Below the pieces are notes generated by a model. The model was not told where the DNA came from, ran no database searches, and saw only the letters and a list, made by a program, of their open reading frames with translations. A program made the position numbers and the translations under genes. This document shows positions 2,213 through 8,628 of a stretch of DNA of 64,000 nt, piece after piece (position 1 is the stretch's first letter; the number at the start of each line of letters is the position of its first letter). Source of the stretch: Halorubrum persicum (GTDB lineage: Archaea; Halobacteriota; Halobacteria; Halobacteriales; Haloferacaceae); the NCBI RefSeq assembly GCF_002727125.1, contig NZ_NHOA01000030.1:1-64000 (forward strand), read 5' to 3'.

Positions 2213-2587
2213 TCATCCGAGCATGAGCGGCCCGATCAACACTCCCATCAGGTGTACTCGCCGCGCGCCGACTCGCGGCGGGACGAGCCCCAGCGTCCCG
2301 GCGAGGGCGAACACGCCGACGCCGAAAGCGCCCGCGAACGCGTACGATATCACTGCGAGCAACCCCAGTACGCCGACTGAGAGCCGCGTGTAGTCGGCGT
2401 TCCCGACGACGCGGAGGTAGGTGTCGCCGACCAGCAGCACGAGCGCGAAGCCGCACGCCGCGGCGGTCGCGGCCGCGACGAGCAGGATCGGGAGCGCGAA
2501 GGGGACTTCGGCGCGGTCGATCGCGACCGTCACGCCCGTCCGCGGCGTCCCGAGCGCGACGAGCGCGAACAGCGCGAAGATCGTGTT
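2213..2587 (-). pseudogene. TctA-type permease, 3' fragment (interrupted gene)
   Basis: This fragment holds the last ~124 codons of a tripartite-tricarboxylate-type (TctA family) membrane permease. It begins at the integration core with Asn-Thr-Ile-Phe-Ala-Leu-Phe and runs through hydrophobic helices to [15 protein letters not shown] and a stop. The matching 5' part lies 5.18 kb away at 7763-8628 on the same strand. In intact relatives the NTANT[13 protein letters not shown] region is continuous, which places the insertion in a conserved stretch. In-frame codons upstream of the junction (2588-2647) come from the inserted element, so any product would be an orphan C-terminal half. Confidence 0.85.
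2582..2587. repeat. Left attachment core
   Basis: The six bases CGTGTT (AACACG on the gene strand, codons Asn-Thr) are shared with 7763-7768 in direct orientation. The near-repeat continues as GAAnnnCGTGTTnGCC at both ends. The codons sit in the same reading frame at both junctions. Confidence 0.7.
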
Positions 2588-2605
2588 AGCCATTTGGGTG
2601 GCCCT

Positions 2606-2617
2606 ACAGTGCAAACA
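2606..2617. repeat. Left terminal inverted repeat of the element
   Basis: ACAGTGCAAACA is the exact reverse complement of 7728-7739. It begins 18 bases inside the left core. It is a candidate arm-type binding site for the recombinase or its accessory protein. Confidence 0.65.
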
Positions 2618-2664
2618 ATACGACCCAACTAGACTAAGTGTATTCAATCAAACAACATTAGAAT

Positions 2665-3114
2665 ATGGCTACTACACCTTCAGTTATATTGGGAGTAGGG
2701 GTTATGATATGGTTGATCCTCCCATTTTATGTACTACAAGATGCTAAAAGACGTGATAAGAATGAACTTTTCTGGGCTTTCCTCACAATAATTTTCGGAA
2801 TTATTGCTGTAGTCATATATAGCGTGGAGATAACACCATATCCTAAAAATCGTCCGTTGAATAACTCATGGAGTAATTCCTCAACGAATGAGGTACCAGA
2901 TATACCAAAACAATCTGGTTGGAGACATTCAATTGAAAGACATAATGAGGATAATGAGCCAGTCGTCTATGTCTCTGACGGGGTGAACGACGCCGAATTC
3001 ATAATCAAAGAAAATGAAATATCACCCTACTCTAAGGTATATCAACGTAAGTACGGCGATAAGTGGATAGAATCTGCAGAGTCGTACCTACGAACGGAAT
3101 TTAAGAACGAATAA
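2665..3114 (+). CDS. Small membrane protein of the element, function unknown
   Basis: The 149-residue product has two predicted membrane helices, about residues 5-24 and 35-53, joined by a short basic/acidic loop (LQDAKRRDKNEL), then a hydrophilic tail of about 90 residues. The helical hairpin resembles the N-terminal anchor domain found in phospholipase-D-nuclease-like and other small membrane proteins, but that is only a shape likeness. Codon use is strongly AT-rich compared with the host genes, which supports foreign origin. It is the only plus-strand gene of the element and lies closest to the left attachment core. Confidence 0.7.
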   Translation: MATTPSVILGVGVMIWLILPFYVLQDAKRRDKNELFWAFLTIIFGIIAVVIYSVEITPYPKNRPLNNSWSNSSTNEVPDIPKQSGWRHSIERHNEDNEPVVYVSDGVNDAEFIIKENEISPYSKVYQRKYGDKWIESAESYLRTEFKNE

Positions 3115-3177
3115 CACCGCTACAGCAGTGTCGTCCGCGCACTTTCCCGCAAATCGGCTACTGATTACGCCTATGAG

Positions 3178-3867
3178 CTAGCGGCTTACGACCGTGACAC
3201 TATCCGACTCAGATACGGCCTTGTGATTGACGCTTACTCCCCCACTAGGGCGATTCACCTCCCCTCGCTTTTCACGGAAGGCAGTTTCCTGTTCGTCCGT
3301 GGTGCGACCGTTAAGCAACCCTACGGACTTGAGACGGTCCTTCACGTCCGTCTCCCGTATCTCAAGTAGCTCTGCAATTTCCTCAGTGCTACAACCTACC
3401 AAGTATAAGGAACTAAACAGCAACACATTGTTACTGTCTAACATGGACCCATCTATCTCATATCCAAGTACCTCAGAAACAAGGCCTTCACGGTCGAGTT
3501 CCTCCCGTGAATCTGCGAATAGGTCTTCACTGGATAACCCGTGAAGCTCTGCCGCCGACTCTAGACTGTCTAGCCAAGAGCGCATCATACCCTCCGTTCT
3601 GGCACCTGTCATTTCCTTTACAGCATCGGCATACGACCCTACCAATTCATGGGAAAATAGTGTCTCTAGAAACTCCCCTTGAGACGGGTTAGCAAGGTCT
3701 TCACGGTCGGGATAGTCGTTGTAGCTAGAACCGACTAGAGGATCTCCCGACCCAAAGCCAATAGTATCAGATACCAAAGTATTGTCAATTCGTGAAGGGC
3801 GGTCATCTGCCGCGTTCCCACCCCTCTGCCGCGCCTCTTCAACCGTCTCTGTGTCAATTTCAAGCAT
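3178..3867 (-). CDS. Helix-turn-helix-containing protein of the element, function unknown
   Basis: The product has 229 residues from ATG 3867. This start overlaps the stop of the preceding gene by 8 bases (AATGCTTGA), so I prefer it to the upstream in-frame ATGs at 3921 and 3942. The N-terminus is acidic and polar. A sigma-region-4-like helix-turn-helix, CSTEEIAELLEIRETDVKDR, lies near residues 152-171. The C-terminal 45 residues are hydrophilic and probably disordered. It is the last and longest gene of a five-gene overlapping operon. A DNA-binding regulator or replication accessory role is inference; I recognise no named family. Confidence 0.7.
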   Translation of the reverse strand: MLEIDTETVEEARQRGGNAADDRPSRIDNTLVSDTIGFGSGDPLVGSSYNDYPDREDLANPSQGEFLETLFSHELVGSYADAVKEMTGARTEGMMRSWLDSLESAAELHGLSSEDLFADSREELDREGLVSEVLGYEIDGSMLDSNNVLLFSSLYLVGCSTEEIAELLEIRETDVKDRLKSVGLLNGRTTDEQETAFREKRGEVNRPSGGVSVNHKAVSESDSVTVVSR

Positions 3868-4057
3868 TGTATCCCCGCCCGTAGTTCCGTGGTTCACTAT
3901 CGCTCGTTTCCTCTGGCTCATCGGCGTTGTCGTCCGACACAAGCCGTTCTATAGCAGAACGAGCCTCCCCCTCAGTCACGTCCGAATCTGCATCAAGAAC
4001 GACCGTGAACCGCTTTGCCTCGGTCGTTTCCTCGAAGTCGAACGTTTCAGTATTCAT
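3860..4057 (-). CDS. Small acidic element protein
   Basis: The 65-residue product has a predicted strand-helix pattern (KRFTVVLDADSDVTEGEARSAIERLV) and a disordered acidic tail. The start ATG at 4057 overlaps the previous stop in an ATGA, and its own stop overlaps the next start by 8 bases, which argues strongly that it is translated. No family recognised. Confidence 0.65.
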   Translation of the reverse strand: MNTETFDFEETTEAKRFTVVLDADSDVTEGEARSAIERLVSDDNADEPEETSDSEPRNYGRGYNA

Positions 4058-4326
4058 TCTCCACCTCCGTATTCCTCGATAGGCACCAAGGCACGGAGGT
4101 TTCCCCCCGACATTTCGAGAATAATACTTCCATCGGGTAGCGTAACATCGGTTGTTTGTTCCGCATTGTTATAGTTGAAATTTGCCACGACATACTTGTC
4201 TGGCTCAGCATCGGCCTTATAAGCGGCCTTTAAATACTCCCCATCATAGTCTACCTTTCCGTCTTTCACGACTTCAACACGGTCGAAAAGGTCTATCCGT
4301 GTTTCTAAGACCGTAATCTCACTCAT
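4054..4326 (-). CDS. Small element protein, function unknown
   Basis: The 90-residue product is mostly predicted beta-structure (ITVLETRIDLFDRVEVV, then YVVANFNYNNAEQTTDV) with a Gly-rich acidic end. The start overlaps the stop of the preceding small gene by 8 bases (ATGAGTGA), and the 3' end overlaps the next start by 4 bases. It is the third gene of the five-gene chain. Not recognised. Confidence 0.65.
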   Translation of the reverse strand: MSEITVLETRIDLFDRVEVVKDGKVDYDGEYLKAAYKADAEPDKYVVANFNYNNAEQTTDVTLPDGSIILEMSGGNLRALVPIEEYGGGE

Positions 4327-4495
4327 CGATATTCTCCATGTGGTCTAGCACAGTCTCAAGCACTAGCTCCAGATTGTCCCGCCGTGCTTGCGGTTGGCTG
4401 TCGTAGTGACCTATCTCAATACCCACATTTACCAAGCGGTGATACTGAGCCGAATCAATGGGGATCTTCTTCGTTTTGCGGGAACGTGTTACCAT
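4319..4495 (-). CDS. 58-residue basic-to-acidic element protein
   Basis: From ATG 4495 it begins MVTRSRKTKKIPIDSAQY and ends in a helical DNLELVLETVLDHMENIDE. A basic N-terminus, a short strand and two helices are compatible with a ribbon-helix-helix-like DNA-binding protein, but no diagnostic motif is seen. Its start overlaps the stop of the upstream small gene by 7 bases and its stop overlaps the following start by 8, so it belongs to the overlapping operon. Confidence 0.6.
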   Translation of the reverse strand: MVTRSRKTKKIPIDSAQYHRLVNVGIEIGHYDSQPQARRDNLELVLETVLDHMENIDE

Positions 4496-4659
4496 GTTAC
4501 ACCCCCGTCGTCATCCTCCGAATCTGACGACAGCAACGACCGACAAGCCCGAGCCACTACCACCCCAAGAGGGACGTTCTCATCATAGACCGTTTCTTGT
4601 GTCAATTCCAAAACCCGTTTCTCGTCGTCTGAAAGTCGAATACGATTGTCACGTACCAT
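4489..4659 (-). CDS. 56-residue element protein, possible ribbon-helix-helix
   Basis: From ATG 4659 it reads MVRDNRIRLSDDEKRVLEL, a short basic strand followed by two helices and an acidic tail. This order resembles small CopG/Arc-type regulators. It is the first gene of the five-gene overlapping operon. The region upstream (4660 onward) is the non-coding block, so it would be the promoter-proximal product and a plausible autorepressor. The family assignment is inference from pattern only. Confidence 0.55.
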   Translation of the reverse strand: MVRDNRIRLSDDEKRVLELTQETVYDENVPLGVVVARACRSLLSSDSEDDDGGVTW

Positions 4660-5010
4660 AGTATGAATAAAGTGAGAAGGCAGTTATCCACGGCGGTGAA
4701 CCAACAATGACTGAAACCTTCTAAACACACGGTAGAAGGGACGACAACCGCTTTACCTGACCTGAGTAGTACACCGCCGTGTTCCCCACCTCCCCATATA
4801 TGTATGTAGTGGCAGTGAAAATATTAGACAGTCTCTCGTCTATTCTACGGTCGTTATCCAATATCGGCAGTGATGTAATGCGTGTGTATGGGTATCGGCT
4901 CGACAAAAATACCCGAGTTATACAAGATTATGTATAGTTTTAGCCTTCATTTGCGTGGGAACAGTTGTAGTATGGCAGTTAGAAAGGTGGTTAGAAGGCC
5001 TATAAAGGGC

Positions 5011-5045
5011 AGAAATGTAATTAGGGGGAGAAATTCGATTAGGGG
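5011..5045. repeat. Two 17-bp direct repeats, period 18
   Basis: AGAAATGTAATTAGGGG (5011-5027) and AGAAATTCGATTAGGGG (5029-5045) match at 14 of 17 positions. They precede the bipartite repeats. Confidence 0.7.
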
Positions 5046-5072
5046 TGATACGGGAGGTGGGGGAAATATCAG

Positions 5073-5108
5073 GTGGCTGATACTCGGGGTGTGTGATACA
5101 CCCACATG
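5073..5108 (+). repeat. Bipartite repeat copy 1
   Basis: GTGGCTGAT at 5073-5081 and ACCCACATG at 5100-5108, start-to-start distance 27; followed by CTCCCCA. Confidence 0.75.
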
Positions 5109-5192
5109 CTCCCCAACTGTCGTAATCAGGTTTCGACAACTGTGAAACTCGCCCGTGACGCGCCGCACAGACAGCAACTTGAATCAGGATAC

Positions 5193-5228
5193 GTGGCTGA
5201 TACCCGATTATCGGTCATTACCCACATG
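5193..5228 (+). repeat. Bipartite repeat copy 2
   Basis: GTGGCTGAT at 5193-5201 and ACCCACATG at 5220-5228, start-to-start distance 27; preceded by GATAC as in copy 3. Confidence 0.75.
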
Positions 5229-5240
5229 AGTCGGGGATAC

Positions 5241-5275
5241 GTGGCTGATTTCCGATAGTGAGAACTACCCACATG
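5241..5275 (+). repeat. Bipartite repeat copy 3
   Basis: GTGGCTGAT at 5241-5249 and ACCCACATG at 5267-5275, start-to-start distance 26; followed by CTCCCCA as in copy 1. Confidence 0.75.
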
Positions 5276-5351
5276 CTCCCCACCAAAACAATCGATTTCT
5301 GAAACCGTCGTTTTCGGGGGAAAAACACTGCCACTACTGATGCTGTCTTAT

Positions 5352-5365
5352 TATGTACGTACATA
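5352..5365. promoter_or_regulatory. Perfect 14-bp palindrome
   Basis: TATGTACGTACATA is its own reverse complement. The ACGTACAT part recurs at 5395-5402. It is a possible dimer-binding operator. Confidence 0.45.
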
Positions 5366-5373
5366 GACCACGG

Positions 5374-5398
5374 ACGTTGTAATGCTGTACTACAACGT
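5374..5398. other. Inverted repeat with 8-bp arms and 9-base loop
   Basis: ACGTTGTA (5374-5381) and TACAACGT (5391-5398) are exact complements. It could be a hairpin or a dimer-binding site. Confidence 0.5.
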
Positions 5399-5750
5399 AC
5401 ATGACCGGCCTCGGCTCGTGTTTGCCCCCCGCCTCTGAGCAAACAACACACATGAGCCGCCGAACGTACCTGAGCCAATTCGAGATCCTACAGAGAACCA
5501 CCCCGATATACGCACTAGTTATTCTTTCAGTTACTCCTCTAAACTACACCCCCCTCAAATTCGGCAGTCTGAGTTACCTGAGAGTATCGCAGAAGAGGGG
5601 CAAAATTTGTATTCACAAAACCCCCACCCTTCACGCAACCAGAACCACCTTCCACGGGGTTTCGTACTTTGCGATTCTCCAATTTATTGGTCCCTCAGGT
5701 GCATGAGACGTACACAAATAGCACTTGAGTAACTTTTTACGGATATGCCG

Positions 5751-5770
5751 TCTAGGACCACAATCCTAGA
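5751..5770. other. Inverted repeat with 7-bp arms and 6-base loop
   Basis: TCTAGGA and TCCTAGA flank CCACAA. It is a short AT-balanced stem, without an obvious T-tract, so an operator is as likely as a terminator. Confidence 0.45.
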
Positions 5771-6099
5771 TAACCTCATTAATCTAGATATGTGGGACCA
5801 CCGAATCTTTGATACAGTATTAATTATGTGTAATGAAGTTAATCACGGCTTGTAGGTGATTCAATTAAGTTTGGTAGATGCGTATCTACTTTTTGGCTGT
5901 TCAATCTCCACCTTCGACTGAGTATCACGTCCCTCCCCGGTCAACAATAGTATGCTTATAAAGGGACGTTTCTGCGCTATATGGGGTGCATCAATACGGA
6001 CGACGTGCCTAGACTTTTCGAGACAGTATATATGAACCGCCGACACAACACATTTAAAAATTATTATTTAATTTTTCAGATATGAGTCAAACATTCGGC

Positions 6100-7119
6100 T
6101 CAGATACTCGGACCATGTCTGCGAACCGAGTTTTGTAGATCCTTGGTGGAGTATTTCAGGTAATTCTCTTTCGTCGTCTCAATGTCGTCATGTCCGAGCA
6201 AATCAGCCAAGAAGGAAATATCGCCGCCGTCATTGATGAAATGCACCCCGAACGACTTTCTCAAAGTATGCGCTCCGACTCGATTGATAGCCCTTCCAGT
6301 GTCTGATTCTACCTCCCCCTCTGGTGGCTTTCCTCGATACACTACCTCCTGTAAAGATGCATTTTCGGCGGCAGTGGTTACTACGTCCGTGACTGTCTGT
6401 TCGTCCATACGTTCTTGCCGCCGTGTTGGGAACAGATAATCCGAATCCTCTGCATTGAAAACCGCGGGTCGTTCCGACTCAATCCACCTGTTCAAGTGCC
6501 AATTGAGAGACGACTGATACCATACGTCACGTGGGTCTTCCGTCTTCTTTCCGTACACTGCGATATGGTTTCGCTCTTGGTCGATATGGTCGAGTTTCAC
6601 ACGGACAAGTTCCGACCGCCTCATACCAGTCTGATACAGCATACGGCAGATTAGTTCGTTCCGAACGGTGGGAGTAGGGACGTTCTCAATTAACTCAGCC
6701 ACCTCTTCGCTAGACAGTGGCTTGTCACCCCCTTCCACGTCCTTCTTAGACGACTTATGCATACCGTCTAACCGTTCGGGGGTTGCGTGTTCCGTAGGAT
6801 CTTGGCTAACAGATACCTCAGGGAACCCCCGTCTTCCGTCCGTTCCGAACGTCTCTAGTGTACTGTAGAAATCCCCCAGAGACGCGTGAGCTACCCGCAC
6901 AGAGGAAGGTGCATACTGCTTGTCGTCTTTCATCCATTGATAGAAATCCTCTGCATGACCGCTATGACAATCCCACAAGGTAGCCTCTGTATGGTCTTCG
7001 AGGTAATCACGGAACCGCCGAACGTGACGGCGGTATTCACGGGCGGTGCTGGCAGACTGTTTCTCCTTGTATTGGTGGTATGTGTCAATCGCCCGTTCTG
7101 CATCGGTAGTTTGTGACAT
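6100..7119 (-). CDS. int: Tyrosine recombinase / integrase of the element
   Basis: The product has 339 residues from ATG 7119. I chose this start because it falls 5 bases after the stop of the upstream regulator and has an AGAGGG Shine-Dalgarno-like run before it; an in-frame ATG at 7143 would overlap that gene. The N-terminal ~110 residues are a SAM-like core-binding domain (TAREYRRHVRRFRDYLE). The catalytic domain has Arg167 in TGMRRSE, the H-x-x-R pair His284/Arg287 in AHTLRKSF, His310 in LLGHDD and the nucleophile Tyr320 in KENYLKY. All five canonical residues are present, so it is probably active. It should catalyse integration and excision at the AACACG core. Confidence 0.93.
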   Translation of the reverse strand: MSQTTDAERAIDTYHQYKEKQSASTAREYRRHVRRFRDYLEDHTEATLWDCHSGHAEDFYQWMKDDKQYAPSSVRVAHASLGDFYSTLETFGTDGRRGFPEVSVSQDPTEHATPERLDGMHKSSKKDVEGGDKPLSSEEVAELIENVPTPTVRNELICRMLYQTGMRRSELVRVKLDHIDQERNHIAVYGKKTEDPRDVWYQSSLNWHLNRWIESERPAVFNAEDSDYLFPTRRQERMDEQTVTDVVTTAAENASLQEVVYRGKPPEGEVESDTGRAINRVGAHTLRKSFGVHFINDGGDISFLADLLGHDDIETTKENYLKYSTKDLQNSVRRHGPSI

Positions 7120-7124
7120 GGGCG

Positions 7125-7697
7125 TTATTCCCTCTTGTACCACAGAGGGTTTCGGCGACGTATCGCAGTACCAGTATCTTCAATCTCAAGCTCCCGACCT
7201 TGGTGGTCCGTGATTGTCGTGGTTCCCTCCCCCTCTTCGACTTGCTGTATTTCCCGTTTCTCCACGGCGGCAGTCGTCTCATACAATTGGTCAAGAGCCA
7301 CGCGGGTCGTTTCAGCATCCACGTCAAGCCCTTCTGCAATACCCTCTGCCGTAGTTGCACGGTCGGGAGCCGTGGGAAGGGCATTGAATACCTCTGTTAA
7401 CGTGGATTCAGACACACCTCCACCCGCATTAATCGCCCGTGTTGCGTTCTCTAGCCGTTCCTCAAGGTCTTCAAGTTTGGAATCCATCTGTTCGACAGTC
7501 GTTACAAGCTCCCCGACTTGTTGACTGCCAACCCCACCCCCTTGCCCCTCTGGTCCGTAGTGGTCCGACATTTCATGAGCTACGGCTACACGGAGCAAAT
7601 GACTCAGACTGTCGTATTCGGGATTATCCTCTGCATACGTATCCCACCGTTCTTTTTGTGACTCATCAACACGGAACGCGATTGTAGGTCGTTCCAT
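7125..7697 (-). CDS. Ribbon-helix-helix / coiled-coil / winged-helix-like regulator
   Basis: The 190-residue product starts MERPTIAFRVDESQKERWD, a strand-helix-helix pattern like ribbon-helix-helix proteins. A Gly/Gln linker and a coiled coil follow (EQMDSKLEDLEERLENATRA, about residues 69-88), then a helical segment resembling a winged helix (TTAEGIAEGLDVDAETTRVA). It lies between the right attachment core and the integrase and is co-directional with int, 5 bases apart. A recombination directionality factor or integrase regulator is inferred from this position; haloarchaeal proviruses are known to carry small accessory genes next to int. Confidence 0.75.
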   Translation of the reverse strand: MERPTIAFRVDESQKERWDTYAEDNPEYDSLSHLLRVAVAHEMSDHYGPEGQGGGVGSQQVGELVTTVEQMDSKLEDLEERLENATRAINAGGGVSESTLTEVFNALPTAPDRATTAEGIAEGLDVDAETTRVALDQLYETTAAVEKREIQQVEEGEGTTTITDHQGRELEIEDTGTAIRRRNPLWYKRE

Positions 7698-7727
7698 ACT
7701 GCCATGTCACTGAGCCTCGTACTTGAG

Positions 7728-7739
7728 TGTTTGCACTGT
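7728..7739. repeat. Right terminal inverted repeat of the element
   Basis: TGTTTGCACTGT is the exact reverse complement of 2606-2617. It ends 23 bases inside the right core. Confidence 0.65.
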
Positions 7740-7762
7740 TCCCCCAGCCAGTAAGAGAACAC

Positions 7763-7768
7763 CGTGTT
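7763..7768. repeat. Right attachment core
   Basis: CGTGTT matches 2582-2587 in direct orientation. On the gene strand it encodes Asn-Thr in the same frame as the left copy. Confidence 0.7.
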
Positions 7769-8628
7769 CGCCGTGTTCGCGCCGCTCGTCGCGACGACGA
7801 ACCCGCGGTCCGACTCGTCCCGCGGGACCGCCGGCAGCGCCGCGACCGCCGCGATGGCCGCGGAGACGCCCGGCACGTAGCCGACGACCGCGCCCGCGAG
7901 GGACCCGCCGCCGGCGCTGACCCCGAGCCCGCGGCGGCTCATCGCGATCCGAGCGTCGGCCTGCGGCGGGACGCCCCCGCCGCCCATCGCGTCGACGAGC
8001 ACGGGTGCGCCGAACAGGCCGGCGAAAAGCGGCGCGAGGACCCCGCCGGCGTCGAGGGGCGCCGACGGGTCGGCGTCGAGCGTTGCGAGCCCGAGCGCGG
8101 CGCTCGCGAGGAGGGCGACGAGCCCCCGAGCGCGGCCCGCTTCGAGGACTCCGTGAACACGAGGAAGGCGACGACGACGCCCAGAATCAGCGGGAGGTGG
8201 TCCCTGACGACGGGGTAGCCGCGCATCATGCCCCAGGTGATCGGGAGCGCCAGCGGGACCGCGAGCGCGACCGCCAGCCCCGACCCGACGGCGGACAGCC
8301 GAACCGCCTCCCGACCGCGGCCGGCCACCACGAGCCGATGGCCCGGCAGCGCGGCGACCGCCGTGGCCGCGTCGGGGACGCCGAGCGCGAGCGCGGGCAC
8401 GATGTCGAGGAAGGAGTGGACCACGCCCGCGCCGAGCATCGCGACGCCGACGAGCAGCGGGTCGGCCGACACCGAGGGGGCGATCCCGGCCAGAAACAGG
8501 GCGAAGTTGTTGGCGTGCAGTCCCGGGACGAGCCCGCTCGCGGTTCCGAGGGCGACGCCCCCGCACAGGAACGCCAGCGCCGCCGCCGCGAACCCCGGAT
8601 CGACGACGGGCCGGACCAGTGCGTCCAT
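7763..8628 (-). pseudogene. TctA-type permease, 5' fragment with frameshift
   Basis: From ATG 8628 the frame reads MDALVRPVVDPGF and continues through several hydrophobic helices with the family motif GLVPGLHANNF to about 8128. There, at a run of five C (8123-8127, plus strand), the reading must move one frame to continue as LVALLASAALGLATLD, then PGVSAAIAAVAALPAVP and SGANTANT, where the element begins. The family imports small carboxylates or related solutes in the inner membrane. The gene is therefore broken twice: by the frameshift and by the insertion. The frameshift may be a real mutation or a sequencing error in the homopolymer. Confidence 0.85.

Follow-up and report, generated by a model that had tools for sequence, protein, structure and literature searches.

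Haloarchaeal integrases of the type found in the betapleolipovirus SNJ2 target tRNA genes (PMC8371274). Chromosomal attachment sites (attB) within protein-coding genes have also been described in archaea, that of BJ1 in the HMG-CoA reductase gene and those of thaumarchaeal elements at 3′ ends of genes (PMC8371274, section 19; PMC6563490). A 2021 review of archaeal tyrosine recombinases points out that none of these reported protein-gene attB sites had ever been tested, and raises the question whether the usual dyad symmetry is found in them (PMC8371274). More generally, coding sequences host 43.4% of the genomic islands catalogued in TIGER/Islander (PMC12424338). Here, we analyzed a 64,000-nucleotide stretch of Halorubrum persicum DNA (contig NZ_NHOA01000030.1, positions 1 to 64,000; hereafter the window), in which the two halves of tctA, a TctA-type gene (PF01970), flank an AT-richer element of 5,181 bp. 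We propose, with a probability of about 0.87, that this element is a plasmid that carried a gene for a ribbon-helix-helix (RHH) protein and a gene for a XerC-like recombinase and integrated into tctA via a six-base core.

The sequence CGTGTT, that is AACACG on the coding, minus strand, was found at both ends of the element, in each case in frame and encoding Asn-Thr. One copy comes after the N-terminal two thirds of tctA and the other before its C-terminal third:

2213 to 2581, minus strand: 3′ (C-terminal) part of tctA, PF01970 match (E=4e-13), corresponding to residues 283-410 of the rejoined TctA protein
2582 to 2587, minus strand: core copy 1, AACACG (Asn-Thr), junction between the element and the C-terminal part of tctA
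7763 to 7768, minus strand: core copy 2, AACACG (Asn-Thr), junction between the N-terminal part of tctA and the element
7769 to 8628, minus strand: 5′ (N-terminal) part of tctA, PF01970 match (E=2e-26), with a one-nucleotide deletion near 8122

When the flanks were joined and the core counted once, the resulting gene aligned along its entire length, over 1,236 nucleotides, with the intact tctA of a congener (L039), with 91.5% identity and no gap at the join. The corresponding protein gives a single PF01970 match spanning the whole domain (E=1e-58). The core is therefore directly repeated at both ends of the element and present once in the empty site, as in site-specific integrative elements. 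The GC content is approximately 48% inside the element, as compared to approximately 70% or more outside. With an integrase gene present (see below), these results bear out an initial annotation made from the letters alone, which had described an AT-richer insert of about 5.18 kb, integrated into a TctA-type gene with an in-frame six-base core at both junctions.

That annotation had further claimed that excision would rejoin the codons exactly. The gapless join agrees with this, but excision would not restore tctA here unless a frameshift is a sequencing error. Indeed, the rejoined gene shows a single one-nucleotide gap with respect to L039 and the other intact copies, located near 8122 in a run of G, which puts the N-terminal part in two frames. 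The frameshift may be real, making tctA a pseudogene, or may be a homopolymer error of this 158-contig draft assembly. If real, it would favor the idea that the locus is a relic, with the element and its target gene both decaying and recombination having ceased; it also counts in this direction that the activity of the integrase is a prediction. We consider a relic possible but doubtful, because the integrase reading frame and both ends of the element are intact, none of the catalytic residues is missing, the tctA halves are open in most other occupied genomes and the deletion lies where a draft assembly may err.

A six-base repeat is by itself weak evidence for a site. The core is credible because tctA is split at the same codons in seven other sampled genomes and in two named genomes beyond the sample. 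The sample contained 392 genomes of Halobacteria, one per species, and was searched with the rejoined TctA; 29 genomes, in which matches were multiple, weak or absent, were searched again. tctA was detected in 388 of the 392 genomes and is split in eight, that of the window included, with cuts at query residues 283-297 and pieces 5-121 kb apart. The other genomes among the 29 showed a frameshift, a contig end or no gene; they were set aside and not counted as insertions. The initial annotation would have been contradicted by relatives carrying the same two gene pieces and no continuous homologue. On the contrary, of the 52 congeneric genomes besides that of the window, 50 gave one continuous match; a small indel and a contig edge seem to account for the remaining two.

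The two named cases are Halospeciosus flavus XZGYJ-43 (NZ_CP122312.1) and Haloglomus irregulare F16-60 (NZ_QMDX01000001.1). Their elements, of approximately 3.4 kb and 6.0 kb, are inserted at the tctA codon pair used in the window and carry an RHH-integrase module with integrases 69% and 38% identical to that of the window, respectively. Their cargo differs from that of the window element, and the Haloglomus irregulare element encodes a putative Rep protein (PF07232). Overall, ten tctA insertions of 3.4-121 kb were collected, and at every junction the block common to both ends contains the same codon pair (Asn-Thr/Ser/Ala). The core is AACACG in the window, L025, L030, G321 and G277, AACTCG in L029 and L078, AACGCG in G224, AATACG in G175 and AACACC in L077. 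The core thus tracks the host codons, as expected from the way tyrosine recombinases work if identity of the overlap is needed for strand exchange. The identical junction blocks are 6-19 bp long, with only six bases in the window and in G175.

These comparisons also bear on the idea that a transposase inserted the element, AACACG being a target-site duplication. Such an event could leave a direct repeat of six bases, and the partly inverted ends would agree with it. However, independent elements hit the same codons, and their identical blocks, whatever their length, always include the same codon pair. Moreover, searches against Pfam, PHROGs and NCBIfam revealed no transposase gene in the window element, which encodes instead a tyrosine integrase with its catalytic residues. 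A transposase insertion is therefore extremely improbable.

The module adjoining the right end of the element consists of two genes:

6100 to 7116, minus strand: tyrosine recombinase (integrase) of 338 residues, PF00589 match (E=5e-29), motifs kept in relatives
7125 to 7697, minus strand: RHH-type protein of 190 residues, encoded directly upstream of the integrase across the family, as seen from the family alignment

The integrase is XerC-like, with a SAM-like domain followed by the PF00589 domain. Alignment to relatives and to the XerA and XerD structures identifies the R-K-HxxR-H-Y catalytic set of tyrosine recombinases as R166, K190/191, H283, R286, H309 and Y319. Judged from its sequence pattern, the 190-residue protein probably has a ribbon-helix-helix N-terminus and a helix-turn-helix-like C-terminus. 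AlphaFold models were too poor for a fold search, with a mean predicted local distance difference test score (pLDDT) of 49 for this protein and of 40 for the 247-residue protein described below. The RHH and integrase genes are paired in the window, as they are in almost every related locus that was examined. Besides, the window's own genome contains two more RHH and integrase modules (G000:C38:18609-20067, locus L201, and G000:C52:64045-65705).

This module resembles that of SNJ2-type betapleolipoviruses (PMC8371274, PMC13107129), which is also haloarchaeal and has a classical, uninterrupted integrase with SAM-like and PF00589 domains, co-transcribed with small upstream genes. The likeness is one of layout. 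In contrast with the SNJ2 type, no tRNA gene was found near the window element or any mapped relative.

An RHH-type gene followed by a window-type integrase gene is carried by six of the ten tctA elements. In a tree of 58 integrases, these users of tctA form two separate groups (the window, L077 and L025; L029, L030 and L078), and therefore at least two changes of target must have occurred. Three large tctA elements of 54-121 kb (G277, G321, G224) have a different integrase near one end, of 433-441 residues with a C-terminal zinc ribbon, far from the window type in sequence. Its best relatives are encoded by a Halococcus plasmid (44% identity) and by Halorubrum tailed virus 27 (38%). For the 38-kb element of G175, a search up to 10 kb from each end revealed no integrase. 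Loci L069-L076, which belong to G224, G321, G175 and G277, correspond to these elements of 38-121 kb at the same tctA codons. Integrases of at least two unrelated families have thus converged on one six-base site of tctA. Unlike the thaumarchaeal sites at 3′ ends, this site lies in the middle of the gene, and unrelated integrases have repeatedly used the same codons.

In order to examine the targets of the RHH-integrase family at large, we used the RHH protein profile, which has matches in 95 of the 392 genomes, and examined 40 more loci. At each locus, the RHH gene was paired with its integrase gene, direct repeats linking the end next to the RHH gene to the opposite side were sought, the flanks were joined and an open frame across the join was looked for. 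Only joins rebuilding a recognizable gene were counted, as some top-scoring automatic repeats are chance matches. This is the case of the best-scoring repeat in the window, whose 6-bp core is below the cut-off of the automatic search. Loci outside the count include L027, L028, L034, L038, L179, L180 and L189, as well as L190, L194, L200, L202, L204, L207 and L209.

For about twenty elements, the join yielded a recognizable protein gene. The targets are tctA (six elements), an ABC exporter gene (two, same motif), an ABC-2 permease gene (two, same motif), the 3′ end of menB (two), a GNAT acetyltransferase gene (L181, while L185 adjoins the same gene) and the 5′ end of the aRF1 gene (L183, with two neighbors, L182 and L199, alike). 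Targets rebuilt once each are tspO (L026), two type II/IV secretion ATPase genes, the genes for volactin, an HhH-GPD glycosylase and a sensor kinase, DoxX-like genes, the 3′ end of the EF-2 gene (L033, G103) and a methylase-like gene. The names menB, EF-2, DoxX and methylase come from reading the rebuilt sequences and not from a family search. In all ten cases tested, the join lies within or adjacent to a Pfam domain; in the aRF1 gene, it immediately precedes the first domain. The ABC-2 permease motif SIFHGRWNEY is hit by L035 and L175, and the ABC exporter motif (W/Y)PM-(A/R)Q(F/M)GQII by L036 and L191, each pair coming from different genera. Therefore, tctA is not the sole recurrent site.

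The consequences for the target gene vary. Elements in the EF-2, menB and aRF1 genes carry a replacement end: EF-2 retains SIDYF-stop, menB of L177 retains PWHY-stop, and the RHH-side end of L183 (G152) gives aRF1 a new in-frame start and N-terminus, MSSDDKSNTMEDSDRRKYEFKK. By contrast, tctA, tspO and the volactin gene are cut mid-gene; this opposition is our own reading of a few cases. The EF-2 gene is also used by thaumarchaeal casposons (PMC6563490). In the window, the N-terminal part of tctA continues into foreign codons and the C-terminal part is cut off by the element, with no replacement end. Repeated use of protein genes, cut in this manner, is also known for the HE-PICI integrase clade (PMC10111431). 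However, HE-PICI are bacterial satellites residing in prophage late genes, whereas a helper virus or regulation would be hypothetical for the window element.

Disruption of a target without a replacement end is found in cases of regulated gene integrity (PMC10111431, PMC12424338), and by analogy integration could switch tctA off and a programmed excision could bring it back. Such a switch is very unlikely here, since only a few percent of the genomes are occupied, the host gene is frameshifted and there was no sign of control genes linked to a physiological signal. A broader scheme would make the NTANT codons of tctA a general haloarchaeal docking site, on which unrelated integrases converged as loss of tctA is tolerated or even useful, giving an on/off transporter switch. 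The RHH-integrase family would then move freely from one conserved protein motif to another; dispensable genes would be split mid-gene, and essential ones such as EF-2 and aRF1 would be supplied with a replacement end. We regard this scheme as rather unlikely.

Concerning the symmetry of the sites, inverted arms were found close to both ends of the window element:

2606 to 2617, plus strand: left arm of a 12-bp inverted repeat, ACAGTGCAAACA
7728 to 7739, plus strand: right arm of the 12-bp inverted repeat, TGTTTGCACTGT; a near-identical sequence, TTGTTTTGCACTGT, occurs in L181

In the circular form of the element, this repeat would flank the core; none as long was observed at 150 random positions. 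Inverted arms of 9-21 bp, located 8-23 bp from the core, were found in the circular form of eight of 24 elements, that of the window included. A palindromic attB was rejected as a general rule, as only two of the 24 sites exceed the local background; the chromosomal site is strongly symmetric in the window's host and in L030. As a first answer to the question raised in the 2021 review, the chromosomal sites of the family have no general dyad symmetry, whereas the plasmid side often has inverted arms.

The remainder of the element contains the following features:

2665 to 3114, plus strand: open reading frame for a predicted membrane protein of 149 residues, no Pfam family above cut-off, weak PHROG match of unknown function
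3178 to 3921, minus strand: protein of 247 residues with a possible helix-turn-helix region, 35% identical (E=1e-30) to a Halomicrobium urmianum plasmid protein
3860 to 4057, minus strand: open reading frame of 65 residues
4054 to 4326, minus strand: open reading frame of 90 residues, matching a 94-residue plasmid protein at the same position (E=0.002, weak) and a protein of L036 (34%, E=1e-13)
4319 to 4495, minus strand: open reading frame of 58 residues, matching a 57-residue plasmid protein at the same position (E=3e-7)
4489 to 4659, minus strand: open reading frame of 56 residues
4660 to 6099, no strand: low-coding stretch of 1.4 kb with direct and inverted repeats, for instance 5187-5208 and 5235-5256

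According to the initial annotation, the gene content beyond the integrase was unrecognized. This is only partly so: in addition to the RHH-type gene, three genes are ordered as on a plasmid, the circular unnamed4 of Halomicrobium urmianum (NZ_CP084094.1, 4,491 bp). Its genes for proteins of 57, 94 and 214 residues follow the order of those for 58, 90 and 247 residues in the window (E=3e-7, 0.002 and 1e-30, in this order). The plasmid also has a non-coding gap of approximately 1.5 kb at the same place as the low-coding stretch, which is possibly a replication origin or control region, and a CopG-type RHH gene. Unlike the window element, it has no integrase gene; its RHH protein is dissimilar and protein identity is only 27-35%. 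Homologues of the 247-residue protein occur in 16 other sampled genomes, and the putative plasmid Rep PF07232 is found in the relatives L078 (tctA) and L026 (tspO). No credible Rfam family of structured RNA was found in the element.

A defective or satellite provirus mobilized by a helper virus would share the small size of the element and its virus-like integrase, which matches a PHROG integrase (E=4e-38). However, no capsid, packaging or other structural family was found in the window element with Pfam, PHROGs and NCBIfam. IMG/VR contains no relatives of the 247-residue or RHH proteins, only remote matches (at most 39%) to the integrase, and the circular junction of the element was not found there. 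The 247-residue protein has its match on a circular plasmid, and phage records gave none. A viral origin was thus discarded on the absence of structural genes and of close relatives among viral contigs, and a helper-dependent provirus appears improbable. The element is most likely an integrative plasmid and not a virus, because part of its cargo matches a circular plasmid in gene order, two relatives encode a putative Rep, and no virus-structure genes or close viral relatives were found.

The integrative plasmid would have acted as follows. A small haloarchaeal plasmid would carry an integration module of two genes, one for an RHH-type protein that binds DNA and one for the XerC-like tyrosine recombinase. 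With the plasmid in a circular, autonomously replicating form, the recombinase, possibly directed by the RHH protein, would exchange strands between the six-base core of the plasmid and the identical Asn-Thr codons in a conserved segment of the chromosomal tctA. The exchange would insert 5,181 bp and split tctA, and the reverse reaction would rejoin the codons. This course is consistent with the element ends, the core and empty site, the recurrence at the same codons, the catalytic residues and the plasmid-like cargo. The inverted arms around the core also speak for it, as do the RHH-integrase relatives, whose flanks rebuild other protein genes according to the same rule. Several points weigh against it. 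The excised circle and the empty site in the same strain are predicted, the core of the window element is only six bases long, the Pfam search gave no recognizable Rep in this element, and the tctA frameshift may indicate an old insertion that is no longer functionally reversible.

The initial annotation regarded a protein codon block as an unusual target. In view of the islands already known in coding sequences (PMC12424338) and of the archaeal cases reviewed (PMC8371274), integration into protein genes is not new in itself. What is notable is the recurrence at the tctA codon pair and the protein-gene habit of the integrase family. In the open-licence literature, we found no report of tctA as an integration site or of a haloarchaeal integrase family using protein genes, though the TIGER table may already list these loci without comment. 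Overall, the data provide ten natural attB sites from a single gene, the cores varying with the host codons, at least two unrelated integrases for these sites, and an integrase family having some twenty mapped protein-gene targets. As almost every Halobacteria genome sampled contains tctA, the core of this gene could be used as a landing site for single-copy insertion in haloarchaeal genetics.

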